From Gammaproteobacteria bacterium (GTDB lineage Bacteria > Pseudomonadota > Gammaproteobacteria > Eutrophobiales > Eutrophobiaceae): DNA of 37,877 nucleotides. The translations under genes and the position numbers were made by a program. The notes beneath the pieces are model-generated. The model saw only the letters and a list, made by a program, of their open reading frames with translations, was not told the origin of the DNA and did not search any database. The stretch's first letter is position 1. The number at the start of each line of letters is the position of its first letter. Shown here in pieces: positions 25,469 to 31,057 of the stretch. Where the stretch lies: NCBI GenBank assembly GCA_028281365.1, contig JANQJZ010000003.1:1-37877 (forward strand), in the 5' to 3' direction.

Positions 25469-25843
25469 ATGAAAAATATTTTATTAGTATTTCTAGTATC
25501 TATTTTAGGTACTGTTACGGTTCAGGCCAATGAGTATCCGACTGAGACTACGGTTCGTTATATGCTGAACTGTATGGCTGATTTAGGTGGTCAAAATGAC
25601 CAAAATCTTTATACCTGTGCCTGCCGTTATGATGGAATTCGTGAAGCTATGACATACAGTGATTATGAAGAAGGAATTACCTACGAGAGAAATAAACCTA
25701 TGCCGGGCAAGAAGGGTGCCTTCTTCAGGGATAATCAGCGTGGTGAAGGATTTTACGAAGTACTTTTGAAAGTCAGGGAAGAAGCGAATAAAGGTTGTAT
25801 CGTTGTAAAACATGTACAACGGCCACCAATTAGCGAAGAATAA
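25469..25843 (+). CDS. Small secreted Cys-containing protein of unknown function
   Basis: The 124-residue precursor has a signal peptide (cleavage near VQA-N), giving a mature protein of about 104 residues with four Cys: one in MLNCMAD, a CAC pair and one in KGCIV. They could form two disulfides. A good AGGAGA site precedes the ATG. I do not recognise a named family. It sits at the edge of the XoxF module and converges on the SoxYZ-like gene, so a role in the same periplasmic system is plausible but unproven. Confidence 0.75.
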   Translation: MKNILLVFLVSILGTVTVQANEYPTETTVRYMLNCMADLGGQNDQNLYTCACRYDGIREAMTYSDYEEGITYERNKPMPGKKGAFFRDNQRGEGFYEVLLKVREEANKGCIVVKHVQRPPISEE

Positions 25844-25850
25844 TTACAAA

Positions 25851-25878
25851 AAACCCATGGTGGGGTATCTCTCCCCAC
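25851..25878. terminator. Bidirectional hairpin between convergent genes
   Basis: GTGGGG (25860-25865) pairs with CCCCAC (25873-25878) around seven bases. On the minus strand it is followed, after six bases, by a run of T residues (the A-run at 25848-25853 region), so it probably terminates the SoxYZ-like gene and perhaps also the small secreted protein gene. Confidence 0.6.
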
Positions 25879-25887
25879 TTCGGATTA

Positions 25888-26736
25888 TTAGCTTTTTAGA
25901 GTCACCTGATGCGTTGAACTAAACGCATTCTTCTTGGTGTCGGTGCCTTTGACGGTCATCACGCCTTCCTCCTCCGGTACAAAGAAAAACCGTAACGCCG
26001 GGTCCATACTGATGGAAAACGTCAACACCGCCTTCACAATCGGCTTGTCATTGTAGCTCACCTCAAACGTGTCCATGAAAAACGCCGGCGGGATCACATG
26101 CGAGCCAATCCGCAACGGGGCCATGCCGGTGATGTTCGGGTGGCGGACCATCACCTGCATCAGGTTCGGTTCTCCCAGTTTCAGGTCACCGACGACCTTC
26201 ATTTTCATCTTGCCCAACAGCCGTTTCGAGTCCTCCATACTGGCCGGCGGGGGGGCCGAACATGCGCCCTTGGCGCGCACGAAGCTCTTGGTCATGTACA
26301 ACTCCCCGGTGTTCAATTCGGCCACGGCCCGGACATAACTGAAGGTATCGACCCGGATACGCATGGCCAGGTCGGCCTTGCCACTGTGCGGGGTGAAGTC
26401 AAACTGGCCGACCAGCGGCAGCGGGTTTTTATCGACAAAGATGGTCATGCGCTTGATATAGCGGTCGGCGGTCTGTGGCATCTTGGTGTGGATGGAGATC
26501 GGCACGACGGTGGCATCTTCGGCGGTATAGGGAGCCTTGAGCTCGAACAGGTCCTGGGCGGCACCCTCAATAATCTCCCGGTCCTGGAAGTTCTGCGTGC
26601 GGAGGTTCTCTTCCCAGGCCTTATCCGAGAGTTTTTGCCGGTAGTCGGCCGGGGCGACACCGGCGTAGACAGTCAAAAATACGAATGATGTTGAAATTAC
26701 GAGACATGTTTTGAACAAATACATAAAAAATTTCAT
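25888..26736 (-). CDS. Quinoprotein dehydrogenase-associated SoxYZ-like carrier protein
   Basis: The 282-residue precursor has a signal peptide (cleavage near VYA-G), a SoxY-like domain (about 40-158) ending in KGACSAPP with a single Cys at 159, and a SoxZ-like immunoglobulin-type domain (about 175-282). This fused form is a known companion of PQQ methanol and alcohol dehydrogenases. In true SoxY the C-terminal Cys carries sulfur intermediates. The role beside XoxF is not established. The gene is divergent from xoxF across 708 bases. Its mature part is strongly GC-rich while the signal peptide is AT-rich, suggesting recombination with foreign DNA. Confidence 0.85.
   Translation of the reverse strand: MKFFMYLFKTCLVISTSFVFLTVYAGVAPADYRQKLSDKAWEENLRTQNFQDREIIEGAAQDLFELKAPYTAEDATVVPISIHTKMPQTADRYIKRMTIFVDKNPLPLVGQFDFTPHSGKADLAMRIRVDTFSYVRAVAELNTGELYMTKSFVRAKGACSAPPPASMEDSKRLLGKMKMKVVGDLKLGEPNLMQVMVRHPNITGMAPLRIGSHVIPPAFFMDTFEVSYNDKPIVKAVLTFSISMDPALRFFFVPEEEGVMTVKGTDTKKNAFSSTHQVTLKS
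25935..26668. other. GC-rich compositional island inside the SoxYZ-like gene
   Basis: By hand count, 26101-26160 is 65% G+C and 26221-26280 is 72%, against 25% for the nearby non-coding 25381-25440 and 38% for coding 25561-25620. The 5' boundary is sharp: 7 of the first 21 codons end in G or C, but 27 of the next 32 do from codon 23 onward. The last dozen or so codons return toward the local style. This supports replacement of the gene's interior by DNA from a GC-rich relative. Confidence 0.75.
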
Positions 26737-26978
26737 ATTCTATAACTCCGCTGACATCTTGTAGATATATTGAAGTACCATGATGACATTATATAAAATT
26801 ATTATAGCTCTTTAAAAATAAGACCATAAATGTATTCTTTAGTTTATTTTTTACGTTATTCACAGAATAAATGTGTGAATAAAAGGTGTTTGTTGCAACG
26901 CAATAATTAGGCGTTTAACAGACTGTATATTTGTTGTCTAGATATATGTTTTTTAATAGTAAAAATGTCTTGCGCACC

Positions 26979-26994
26979 TAGGGAAAATTTCCTA
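26979..26994. promoter_or_regulatory. Near-palindromic site upstream of xoxF
   Basis: TAGGGAAAATTTCCTA matches its reverse complement at six of eight positions per arm. The form resembles LuxR/NarL-type response-regulator sites, which control quinoprotein dehydrogenase genes in other bacteria. The assignment is speculative. Confidence 0.35.
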
Positions 26995-27008
26995 AACTCT
27001 GTTTCAGA

Positions 27009-27023
27009 TTAGAATTCTGATTA
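27009..27023. promoter_or_regulatory. Palindromic site copy 1 upstream of xoxF
   Basis: TTAGAATTCTGATTA contains the palindrome AGAATTCT with nearly symmetric flanks. It matches copy 2 at 13 of 15 positions, with a centre-to-centre distance of 105 bases. Confidence 0.45.
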
Positions 27024-27113
27024 AAAAGCGAGTGGTTTAAATCAATTTGTCAGTGAAGGTTCTTTAAAGTTTGATTTTAGCCATTCATTTTTAAACCATA
27101 CATTTCAAGCATA

Positions 27114-27128
27114 ATAGAATTCTAATTA
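27114..27128. promoter_or_regulatory. Palindromic site copy 2 upstream of xoxF
   Basis: ATAGAATTCTAATTA contains the perfect 10-bp palindrome TAGAATTCTA. The spacing to copy 1 is about ten helical turns, so both copies face the same side of the DNA. Confidence 0.45.
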
Positions 27129-27367
27129 CTATTTAAGAATAAAACACACTATACAGTGTAAAAAAGGGTTTTAACTGTATAACAATCGTAGGTATTGGTA
27201 ACAGGACTTAAAACAAAACATGCTTCCGTGTACATTGTTGCTCTTTAATCATATAAAAATGGTTATCAATAAACTAACCAATTCTTTTCTGTTTCAATAT
27301 CATTCTCTGCATGCAAAAAGTTATTACTTGTTTGCATATAACAATTTTAAAACTCTATAGCGCTTTA

Positions 27368-27411
27368 TGATCTCGAGGTGCTATATAGTTATCTGTGACT
27401 TAACGAGATCA
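27368..27411 (+). promoter_or_regulatory. Inverted repeat in the probable xoxF leader
   Basis: TGATCTCG (27368-27375) and CGAGATCA (27404-27411) are exact inverted repeats separated by 28 bases, ending 33 bases before the xoxF start. They could form a leader RNA stem or be two half-sites for a regulator. The -10 candidate TATAGT lies within the loop. Confidence 0.4.
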
Positions 27412-27444
27412 AACACATGATCAACTAATATAGAGGAGGAGGTC

Positions 27445-29412
27445 ATGAGTAAACTATCAATAAAGAAATGGCTCGTTGCTATACTAGCATTAGGATTAGC
27501 GGCTCCAGTTATGGCGAACGATGAAGTTCGTAAACTGATCGATAATCCTAATTATTGGGCCTTCCCTGGTGGTGACTACAATAACTGGCGTTATACCGAG
27601 TTGAATCAAATCAACACGAAAAATGTTAGCAAACTGGTTACTGCCTGGACATTTTCAACCGGCCGTCTGCAAGGTCATGAAGGTGGACCTTTGGTTTTAC
27701 CACCAAGTGCTACAGGTTTAAAAACTGATCACTTGTACATCCACTCTTCATTCCCGAATGACGTTTTCGCTATCGACTTGGATACGCTTAATATCACCTG
27801 GTATTACGAGCCACAACAAGACGAAGCAGAAACCGTTCCTGTAATGTGCTGCGATATTGTAAACCGTGGCTTGGGTTACAGCATGGGTCAAATCTATCTA
27901 CAACAAGCTGACACCACATTGGTTGCTTTAACAGCTGATAAAGGTAAAGTAGTTTGGAGTGTAAAAAATGGTAGCGAGATTACTAACGATCTCAATTCCA
28001 AACCAGGACGCGGAGTTGGTCCAGCAAGTGGTATGACCAACACTAACGCGCCACATCCAATTAAAGACAAAATCTTTACCGGTTGTTCTGGTGCTGAGTT
28101 TGGTGTTCGTTGCTGGATCGCTGCATACAACGCTAAAGACGGTTCTTTGGCCTGGCGTGCATTCAGCATGGGTCCTGATGAAGACATTCTTTTTGATAAG
28201 AACACAACTTCATTAGGTAAGAAAGTTGGTAAAGACTCATCACTGAAGACTTGGTGTTCTAACGCTGACTGGAAAGCACCTTCTCGTGGTCCAAACAAAT
28301 GTAAAGGTTTGAGCGATCAGTGGAAAACGGGTGGTGGTTCAGTCTGGGGTTGGTGGCCTGCTGACTTCGACGAAAATCTTGTCTACTACGGCAACGGTAA
28401 CCCATCTACCTGGAACCCAGTCGTACGTCCTGGCGATAACAAATGGTCTATGACCATCTTTGCCCGTGACATCGATACCGGTATCGCTCGTTGGGCCTAT
28501 CAGATGACCCCACATGATGAGTGGGACTACGACGGTGTTAACGAAATGATCCTGGCTGACTTCAAAGTCAAGGGTAAGATGACCCCGGCCCTGGTTCACT
28601 TCGATCGTAATGGTTTCGCCTACACGATGAACCGTAAAACCGGTGCATTACTTGTTGCTGAAAAGTATGACCCGGCTGTTAACTGGGCGACCCACGTTGA
28701 CATGAAGACGGGTTATCCTCAAACGCTTGACCAGTTTTCAACCCACCACAACGGTGAAGACGTCGTTTCCAAGGACATCTGTCCTGCAGCACTTGGTACC
28801 AAGGATCAGCAGCCTGCTGCTTATTCTCCACGTACCAATCTGTTCTACGTCCCAACCAACCACGTTTGTATGACCTACGAACCAGTAAGTTATGCAGCTG
28901 GTGGTAACCAATACACGGCTGGTCAAGCCTACGTTAACGCTAACCTGACCATGTATCCTGCTGGCGCGGTTTGCCCGGATTGTCCTAACAACAATGCTGC
29001 TAAGGACAACATGGGTAACATGATCGCTTGGGACGCTGATAAAGGTAAGATCGTTTGGTCTATTCCTGAACAGTGGTCAGTCTGGTCAGGTGTTCTAGCT
29101 ACTGCTGGTGATGTTGTCTTCTATGGCACATTGGATGCGTATGCTAAAGTGGTTGATGCGAAGTCTGGTAAGCTGCTTTGGAAGTTCAAGGCACCTTCAG
29201 GCATCATCGGCAACTTCAACAGCTGGGCGCACAAAGGTAAGCAATACGTTGGTATCCTTTCAGGTATCGGTGGATGGGCTGGCGCTGTTGTCGCTATCCC
29301 GGGCTTAGCGGCTGCTCCAGACGAAGCGGCTCTGGGTGCGGTTGGTGGTTATCGTGCACTGTTAAATTCTGCGCGTAACGCTGGTATCTTATTGGTATTC
29401 AGCCTGCCATAA
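27445..29412 (+). CDS. xoxF: Lanthanide-type PQQ methanol dehydrogenase XoxF
   Basis: XoxF oxidises methanol in the periplasm with PQQ and a lanthanide ion. The 655-residue precursor has a signal peptide (cleavage near VMA-N), the vicinal disulfide Cys135-Cys136, metal ligands Glu218 (GAEFG) and Asn319 (GNGNP), catalytic Asp361 and the extra Asp363 (WDYDG). That second Asp marks lanthanide XoxF and is Ala in calcium MxaF. Cys446/Cys475 match the second conserved disulfide. Odd features are three further Cys pairs: 214/223, 271/286 in an insertion before WKTGGGS, and the CPDC at 510-513. An AGGAGGAGGT site precedes the ATG, predicting very high expression. It ends at its own terminator. The subclade is not assigned. 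Confidence 0.95.
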   Translation: MSKLSIKKWLVAILALGLAAPVMANDEVRKLIDNPNYWAFPGGDYNNWRYTELNQINTKNVSKLVTAWTFSTGRLQGHEGGPLVLPPSATGLKTDHLYIHSSFPNDVFAIDLDTLNITWYYEPQQDEAETVPVMCCDIVNRGLGYSMGQIYLQQADTTLVALTADKGKVVWSVKNGSEITNDLNSKPGRGVGPASGMTNTNAPHPIKDKIFTGCSGAEFGVRCWIAAYNAKDGSLAWRAFSMGPDEDILFDKNTTSLGKKVGKDSSLKTWCSNADWKAPSRGPNKCKGLSDQWKTGGGSVWGWWPADFDENLVYYGNGNPSTWNPVVRPGDNKWSMTIFARDIDTGIARWAYQMTPHDEWDYDGVNEMILADFKVKGKMTPALVHFDRNGFAYTMNRKTGALLVAEKYDPAVNWATHVDMKTGYPQTLDQFSTHHNGEDVVSKDICPAALGTKDQQPAAYSPRTNLFYVPTNHVCMTYEPVSYAAGGNQYTAGQAYVNANLTMYPAGAVCPDCPNNNAAKDNMGNMIAWDADKGKIVWSIPEQWSVWSGVLATAGDVVFYGTLDAYAKVVDAKSGKLLWKFKAPSGIIGNFNSWAHKGKQYVGILSGIGGWAGAVVAIPGLAAAPDEAALGAVGGYRALLNSARNAGILLVFSLP

Positions 29413-29484: not shown

Positions 29485-29731
29485 ATGAATAAGACGAGCT
29501 ATGTTTTTACCATTCGAGGAAAAGTTCCATTAAATTAATGGTTATAATCAAGAACTTGAACTGAAATCACATGTCAATTTTGATAAAGGTTCAGGATATT
29601 AAAGAGAATAATTTTAGGATTTTTTGTAAATTGATTTGACATTGAAAGCAAAGACACATTTAATCTCGCCTTTTTTGATTTTAAGAGAAAAGCTAAAAAT
29701 ATATATAAGTACTAAATTGGAGATGACTATC
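29485..29731 (+). promoter_or_regulatory. Intergenic region before the cupredoxin gene
   Basis: AT-rich sequence with no gene. It contains the promoter described separately at 29636-29664 and an approximately 60-base leader ending in TTGGAG nine bases before the chosen ATG. I see none of the AGAATTCT palindromes found upstream of xoxF here. Confidence 0.6.
29636..29664 (+). promoter_or_regulatory. Sigma70 promoter for the cupredoxin-xoxJ operon
   Basis: A perfect -35 TTGACA (29636-29641) is followed by 17 bases and TTTAAT (29659-29664), five of six to consensus. Transcription would start near 29671, about 60 bases ahead of the coding start. Confidence 0.75.
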
Positions 29732-30175
29732 ATGATGACAAGAAAATTAGTGGCAATAATGGTTGCAGCTCTTGCATTTGTTTTGCCAAATCTTGCCAGT
29801 GCAGCTGAACATACCGTTAACGCAGAAGCACGTGTATTTAAGCCTGCAATTATCTATATCCAACCGGGTGATACCGTTAATTTTACCAATATGACCTCTC
29901 ATAATGCAGTCAGCTACCTGACACCTGAAGGCGGTACTGAATTCGGTACTCGAGGACAGTTTCCTGGTGGTAGCTTTAACGTAAAACCTGATAAACCAGG
30001 CATCTGGGGCTATGTATGTGAACCTCACATTGGCTTTGGCATGGTCGGTGTTATCGTTGTCGGTGATATTTCTGAAGAGGACAAAGCGGCTGCCAAGAAA
30101 AAGGCGATGGAAACCCTTGAAGGTCCATTCAAGCGTGTCATTGGTAAAGTAAACAAGATTAAGCCTACCAAATAA
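29732..30175 (+). CDS. Pseudoazurin-type blue copper protein (cupredoxin)
   Basis: This small periplasmic electron carrier holds one type I copper. With ATG 29732 the precursor is 147 residues with a signal peptide (cleavage near ASA-A). The copper ligands fit pseudoazurin exactly in spacing: His57 (TSHN), then Cys96, His99 and Met104 in YVCEPHIGFGM. PGDTVNF and the C-terminal two-helix extension (DKAAAKKKAMETL) also match pseudoazurin. Longer in-frame starts at 29636 and 29723 fit the signal peptide or RBS less well. It lies between xoxF and xoxJ, where the cytochrome XoxG normally occurs, so it may accept electrons from XoxF. Confidence 0.9.
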   Translation: MMTRKLVAIMVAALAFVLPNLASAAEHTVNAEARVFKPAIIYIQPGDTVNFTNMTSHNAVSYLTPEGGTEFGTRGQFPGGSFNVKPDKPGIWGYVCEPHIGFGMVGVIVVGDISEEDKAAAKKKAMETLEGPFKRVIGKVNKIKPTK

Positions 30176-30223: not shown

Positions 30224-31057
30224 ATGAAAAAAATACTTCTCTTTTTATGTCTGATTTCAACTGCACAGTTCGGCTTGGCTGAAGATTTACCTGATAAGGA
30301 AAACCTCAAGGTCTGTGCTGATCCTTACATGTTGCCTTTTTCCAATCAAAAGGGCGAAGGCTATGAAAACAAGATTGCGGAGTTATTTGCAAAAAAATTA
30401 GGCCTTGGACTCAAATACGAATTTTTCCCTCAACGCATGGGTTTCATCAGAAACACCCTAAAGGCAGAATCAGAAGATCGGCCTGGTTTTAAATGTGATC
30501 TTGTGATGAGTGTCCCTACTAATTTCGAACTTGCTGCTACAACTGATCCCTATTTCACATCTACATATGTATTAGTTTATGCAAAAGGGAGAAAACTTGA
30601 TTCAATTACCGATCCCTCTATGCTATCAGCGTTTGTCAATGAACAAGGTAATAAAGTACGGTTTGGTCTGACAGATCGCGGACCTGCACAGCTTTGGGTA
30701 GCCAGGAATAGTCTTCTTGGTAGTATTGCACCATACCAGGCACAACCTGGTGATCCTAAATCAAATCCTGGATTAAAAATGCTCGAAGATATCGTTTCAG
30801 ACAAGATTGATGCTGCAATTATCTGGGGCCCGATGGCAGGTTATCATGCAAAAAAATATAAGGATCAGTCTGAACTGGTCCTGTTGCCTCTGATAGACAA
30901 TCCTGAAATACCGGAGATGCGTTTTAACTACAGCTTTTCCATGGCTGTACGCTATGGAGAAAAAGCCTGGAAGGAAAAAATCAACAAGCTAATCAAGGAT
31001 AATCAGTCGGAAATTGAACAGATACTAAATGATTATGGTGTGCCATTGATTAAATAG
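30224..31057 (+). CDS. xoxJ: XoxJ/MxaJ-type periplasmic binding protein
   Basis: The 277-residue precursor (signal cleavage near GLA-E) belongs to the quinoprotein dehydrogenase-associated family of ABC-type solute-binding proteins. LKVCADPYMLPFSNQKGEGYENKIAELFA and FPQRMGFIRNTLKAE are diagnostic segments; the first is quoted here only by its landmarks CADP, PFSN and GEGYENK. XoxJ is thought to help activate or assemble XoxF; no transporter genes accompany it. It follows the cupredoxin gene and a hairpin, and precedes an unknown secreted protein by 16 bases. Confidence 0.9.
   Translation: MKKILLFLCLISTAQFGLAEDLPDKENLKVCADPYMLPFSNQKGEGYENKIAELFAKKLGLGLKYEFFPQRMGFIRNTLKAESEDRPGFKCDLVMSVPTNFELAATTDPYFTSTYVLVYAKGRKLDSITDPSMLSAFVNEQGNKVRFGLTDRGPAQLWVARNSLLGSIAPYQAQPGDPKSNPGLKMLEDIVSDKIDAAIIWGPMAGYHAKKYKDQSELVLLPLIDNPEIPEMRFNYSFSMAVRYGEKAWKEKINKLIKDNQSEIEQILNDYGVPLIK

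Follow-up and report, generated by a model that had tools for sequence, protein, structure and literature searches.

A GC-rich tract within the soxYZ gene of a xoxF locus points to a probable replacement of the gene body by DNA of a GC-rich relative

How can a single gene combine the codon usage of a GC-rich genome with the protein sequence of a low-GC lineage? This question is raised by a fused soxYZ gene in the window analyzed here, a stretch of 37,877 nucleotides (GCA_028281365.1, contig JANQJZ010000003.1) from a gammaproteobacterium whose genome (2.2 Mb) has a mean GC content of 39.6%. The original prediction held that the interior of this gene had been replaced by homologous DNA from a GC-rich methylotroph, whereas the native signal peptide and ends had been kept. 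Below, the composition of the gene, the affinity of its protein, the edges of the foreign tract and the mobility of soxYZ among relatives are considered in turn. Genomes and genera are designated by G- and g-numbers, respectively; the window's own genome is G000.

A fused soxYZ gene with a GC-rich body

The soxYZ open reading frame (ORF) (Table 1) scores 224 bits against NCBIfam TIGR04557, above the curated cutoff of 140, contains the Pfam domains SoxY and SoxZ, and adjoins a quinoprotein PQQ dehydrogenase gene, as the neighborhood rule of that family demands. Assignment to the true SoxY of thiosulfate oxidation (TIGR04488) was rejected, the score being 73.5 bits vs. a cutoff of 125 and the arm being an internal GACSAP, not a terminal GGCGG. 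Separate SoxY- and SoxZ-type genes are found elsewhere in the genome (contig C51). The fused gene is single-copy, and apart from it the soxY/soxZ-like matches in this genome are remote paralogs only (29-32% identity). Cys159 is the sole cysteine of the mature protein. Since all positions conserved across the family and outgroups are intact, including the G-[AG]-C-S-A-P motif, the protein is probably functional and should still work as a periplasmic sulfur carrier, with the sulfur group on Cys159. Similar to other TIGR04557 fusions encoded beside xoxF (compare SoxYZ-S4; PMC11237559), it combines fused SoxY and SoxZ domains, a signal peptide, a single swinging-arm cysteine and a xoxF neighbor; it differs in that the transfer signature lies within one gene at a native locus and in that its family also has the ORF in a soxYZ-soxC-soxD operon. 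Horizontal transfer has been proposed for SoxYZ fusions, and it has been speculated that they protect methanol dehydrogenase from thiosulfate (PMC11237559).

Table 1. Features of the soxYZ-xoxF locus, in order of position in the window
Feature	Position	Strand	Basis or remark
Conserved 124-aa gene (p124), native GC3 0.31	25469..25843	plus	flanked by kdtA and soxYZ/xoxF throughout the family
Terminator-like hairpin 3' of soxYZ	25860..25878	minus	consensus scan only
Fused soxYZ gene, 282 aa, TIGR04557 quinoprotein dehydrogenase-associated SoxYZ-like carrier	25888..26736	minus	NCBIfam and Pfam profiles
ORF 3' tail, mixed composition	25888..25929	minus	6/14 codons G/C-ending; codons compared with relatives
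GC-rich tract, codons 23-269, GC3 0.81	25930..26670	minus	maximum-likelihood segmentation; codon-usage likelihood fits GC-rich kin, not own genome
GACSAP swinging-arm motif, Cys159	26251..26268	minus	G-[AG]-C-S-A-P in every family member and outgroup compared
ORF 5' end (signal peptide), native codon composition	26671..26736	minus	7/22 codons G/C-ending; 5/20 without ATG/TGG
Native AT-rich intergenic region, soxYZ to xoxF	26737..27444		26924-27007 and 27336-27444 match xoxF loci of low-GC relatives, about 75-89% nt
xoxF-type PQQ methanol dehydrogenase, native-type composition, GC3 0.44	27445..29412	plus	TIGR03075; tree; codons
Cupredoxin, pseudoazurin-like	29636..30175	plus	PF00127; TIGR02375 below cutoff
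xoxJ-type periplasmic binding protein	30224..31057	plus	TIGR03871

Downstream of xoxF, the cupredoxin gene stands where one would normally look for a cytochrome c (XoxG) gene, an order kept in most family members examined. A second xoxF in the same genome (L183 5795-7762, G000:C73) is 84-85% identical to the first, and the stretch examined around it holds no soxYZ-like gene. Additionally, xoxF fragments at contig ends in G006 and G003 (L251, L252, L253, L262, L263) suggest that these genomes have several near-identical copies of xoxF, at which the assembly breaks.

Within soxYZ, maximum-likelihood segmentation of third codon positions delimits a tract in which 200 of 247 codons end in G or C, vs. 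12 of 36 in the rest of the ORF (Fisher p = 1.5e-8), so that the sharp island of the original prediction is real; against the third positions of the own genome, the tract deviates with a binomial p = 2e-53. Segmentation on all bases returns nearly the same segment (25936-26665), with 59% GC, and the predicted 65-72% G+C holds for single lines of sequence but not for the island as a whole. In 856 ORFs from ~1.05 Mb of the own genome, GC3 averages 0.333 (sd 0.052); the whole-ORF value of soxYZ, 0.752, is the highest of all, and the runners-up resemble spurious antisense ORFs. Likewise, a 700-bp window in soxYZ has the highest GC content of 20,170 (0.584; the next separate window reaches 0.530), and no comparable gene or window was found elsewhere in this ~1.05 Mb. 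Across 36 family genes, the excess of soxYZ GC3 over the local background is +0.48 here, +0.19 in G039 and between -0.06 and +0.12 in all others; none of the 35 orthologs shows a similar excess (z ~9).

The tract uses codons as a genome of about 60% GC does: its likelihood is -0.91 to -0.92 nats per codon under the tables of the GC-rich relatives G026 and G001, compared with -1.41 under that of the own genome, and it favors CGG, CGC, CCG, GCC and GTC. Thus, a compositionally foreign tract lies inside a native locus, as homologous replacement would leave it. As an alternative, high expression might have selected for particular codons or for mRNA properties, and xoxF is indeed slightly GC-elevated too. 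However, xoxF, which is likely highly expressed, prefers CGT, GGT, GCT and GTT, with 53% T and 27% G+C at four-fold sites, whereas these sites are 92.5% G+C in the tract, which uses the CGG and CCG that xoxF avoids; moreover, the orthologs show no such pattern. As xoxF prefers T-ending and the tract G/C-ending codons, expression-driven codon choice is excluded, and selection of this kind is extremely improbable as the cause. The first codon positions are shifted as well (GC1 0.563 vs. 0.47-0.54 in low-GC kin), and 10 amino-acid changes go toward GC and 2 toward AT, which suggests a long residence of the sequence under GC pressure, not a purely synonymous event. A/T-ending codons of the tract, considered as relics of a low-GC ancestor, show a weak and uneven excess.

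Placement of the protein and search for a donor

The mature SoxYZ protein is 85% identical to that of G006, 78-84% to those of g4 genomes and 78-85% over the low-GC genera g4 and g7, vs. 57-67% to the GC-rich genera g15, g2 and g5. In a tree of 44 rows it pairs with the low-GC G006 (96/76), and both fall in a low-GC clade of 22 rows with good support. Grouping SoxYZ with the sampled GC-rich genera was rejected, being 110 log units worse (AU p = 4e-45). In line with this placement, 81 synonymous codons are common to soxYZ and G006 where 63 are expected, and synonymous sharing above expectation was seen with none of the GC-rich genera. The housekeeping yardstick aspS gives similar values (84% identity to G006, 77-84% to those g4 genomes that gave a match). 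Thus, the protein sits where vertical descent would place it, while its codons are foreign. xoxF likewise groups with G006, and the agreement of the two trees means that there is no phylogenetic discordance between soxYZ and xoxF, such as homologous replacement might have left; the case for a foreign origin therefore lies in composition. Grouping of the mature domain with low-GC relatives of the same composition had been named as evidence against replacement, and the outcome is divided: the domain does group with low-GC relatives, but its composition is not common to them.

Searches for the donor covered 53 family genomes, 369 class genomes and, at the DNA level, 398 phylum genomes, as well as the contigs of 84,980 species, plasmids, phages and viral contigs, and found none; protein and DNA searches of family, order, class and phylum genomes and of these further collections returned nothing closer than the low-GC kin. 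Viral transfer was considered because viral SoxYZ has been reported (PMC11237559), and it was rejected, since no viral relative of soxYZ was found among the phages and viral contigs. Given a protein of the low-GC clade with foreign codons, the simplest reconciliation is a GC-rich donor near that clade that has not been sampled. The donor, if any, would thus be an unsampled GC-rich lineage close to the window's own clade, and not a distant methylotroph. In this respect the original prediction needs amendment: codon usage is foreign inside the tract and native outside, but a donor among the sampled GC-rich methylotrophs is not supported.

On this evidence, we hold with moderate confidence that the body of soxYZ was recently overwritten by homologous recombination with an orthologue from a GC-rich relative outside the sampled genomes, while the remainder of the locus is native. 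In this scenario, soxYZ would be a long-standing native gene of the xoxF locus, and about 740 bp of its coding body, beginning just past the signal peptide and ending at the stop codon or close to it, would have been replaced by the orthologous gene of a relative with about 60% GC, placed within or beside the g1/g4/g7 clade.

Homologous replacement of genes and gene fragments, which yields mosaic genes, is known for many bacterial genes, and the event proposed here would be an unusually clear example of this known kind. As in other mosaic genes, a foreign tract with abrupt edges lies in a native ORF and locus; the differences are the extreme contrast, GC3 0.81 in 0.33, and a donor, with no known sequence, that has to combine high GC with close kinship. 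Since such a donor would be near the clade and yet GC-rich, phylogeny is silent, and composition reveals a probable replacement of a gene body that trees by themselves would miss.

Edges of the tract and the native surroundings

The 5' edge of the tract falls near the signal-peptide cleavage region, where the residue after the cleavage site is Gly in this protein and Asp in most relatives (A-D-V); the 3' edge falls somewhere between codon 269 and the stop codon. The original count of 7/21 G/C-ending codons before the boundary is exact. Without ATG and TGG, 5 of 20 signal-peptide codons end in G or C, vs. 72 of 119 in seven GC-rich orthologs pooled (Fisher p = 0.004), and their likelihood is -1.05 under the own table compared with about -1.6 under the most GC-rich tables. 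This argues for a 5' edge within the ORF, while GC-rich orthologs show end effects too: in four GC-rich g15 genomes GC3 is 0.44-0.63 in the signal peptide vs. ~0.7 in the body, and in GC-rich orthologs it falls at the tail as well, so that the abrupt edge is partly an ordinary end effect. It could therefore be asked whether the whole ORF, including the signal peptide, was replaced by or inserted from a GC-rich donor, the low-GC3 ends being usual for this gene. An exchanged stretch that stops exactly at the stop codon in G039 is in agreement with such an event, but the signal-peptide codons, which lie below those of the GC-rich orthologs and fit the native table, stand against it and make it quite unlikely. 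Retention of the native signal peptide is thus moderately supported by codon usage, in keeping with the original prediction.

An assembly chimera is the main risk to the reading of a replaced gene body. The assembler could have joined the soxYZ body of another, GC-rich organism from the same community into the contig at k-mers shared on both sides; the source assembly is fragmented (76 contigs), and the related assembly G039 breaks inside soxYZ, owing there to the presence of near-identical copies. Such a chimera, however, needs two in-frame false joins in a contig that is uniform apart from this tract and whose ORF is intact. Furthermore, the other soxY/soxZ-like genes of this genome are too divergent to cause a collapse, and the identity of the mature protein to its relatives fits this lineage when set beside that of aspS. 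An artifact of this kind is accordingly unlikely.

Upstream of soxYZ, a non-coding block at 26924-27007 recurs with 75-88% nucleotide identity at the xoxF loci of G003, G018, G029 and G006, even where soxYZ is lacking, and could possibly be a regulatory element of xoxF. No Rfam match to this block was found, and the only RNA family in the window is a tRNA.

Two loci for soxYZ in the family

Members of the family have the fused soxYZ at two sites, one flanked by kdtA-p124 and xoxF, the other by htpG-HD-prmB and soxC-soxD. The soxCD operon carries it in G006, G003 and other g4 genomes. G006 and G003 have it only there, their xoxF locus being devoid of the gene; the window's own genome has soxYZ at xoxF only. 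Thus, the ORF moves between two loci independently of xoxF, and soxYZ and xoxF, though adjacent, need not share their history. The proposal that soxYZ is exchanged separately from xoxF holds in this sense for the family, although in the window itself no tree discordance attests to it.

G039 has both copies, which are near-identical over 306 bp inward from the stop codon and followed by unrelated DNA past it; its contigs collapse further inside soxYZ. Both copies are GC3-elevated above their neighbors. This is evidence for what appears to be ORF-scale copying between the xoxF and soxCD loci, in an assembly that is fragmented. To our knowledge, no bacterial process raises the GC3 of a single gene by about 0.5 in place with abrupt edges. 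Still, the vertically inherited gene might have been enriched in GC in situ, e.g., by repeated GC-biased gene conversion between two soxYZ copies such as some genomes of this clade have. The congruence of the soxYZ and xoxF trees, the synonymous sharing with G006 above expectation and the conversion between GC3-raised copies in G039 are all compatible with this idea, and GC-biased conversion has been argued for in bacteria (PMC4450053). There, it is described by comparing groups of genes that do and do not recombine; it would likewise raise GC3 in recombining genes, but here the island is abrupt and confined to one gene of one genome, with a shift of about 0.5. In addition, this genome now has one soxYZ copy, and G029, a relative with two, shows no such shift (+0.03). 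Enrichment in place is therefore very unlikely, and replacement of the gene body by donor DNA is retained as the preferred reading.

In genera g7 and g4, the fused soxYZ, soxC (TIGR04555) and the gene of a c-type cytochrome apparently form an operon (L144 3500-6263, L145 3658-6522, L149 5904-8712). This arrangement suggests that the carrier may present sulfur to SoxCD, instead of or besides a role at XoxF. A broader and doubtful possibility is that fused SoxYZ is an interchangeable module for the XoxF locus and the SoxC-SoxD (sulfite dehydrogenase-type plus cytochrome c) operon, its ORF being repeatedly copied between loci and species, here from an unsequenced GC-rich lineage, and that the real role of the XoxF-associated carrier is to deliver sulfur to SoxCD. 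As the XoxF-associated SoxYZ swaps places with the copy in the apparent soxC/soxD operon, its function becomes testable. At the soxCD locus of the window's own genome (contig C2; L185 3181-4065), a FecR/SPOR-domain gene stands in the place of soxYZ. In G029, the xoxF-side soxYZ (L181 73-892, G029:C44) is split into two overlapping frames, and the soxCD-side copy is intact.
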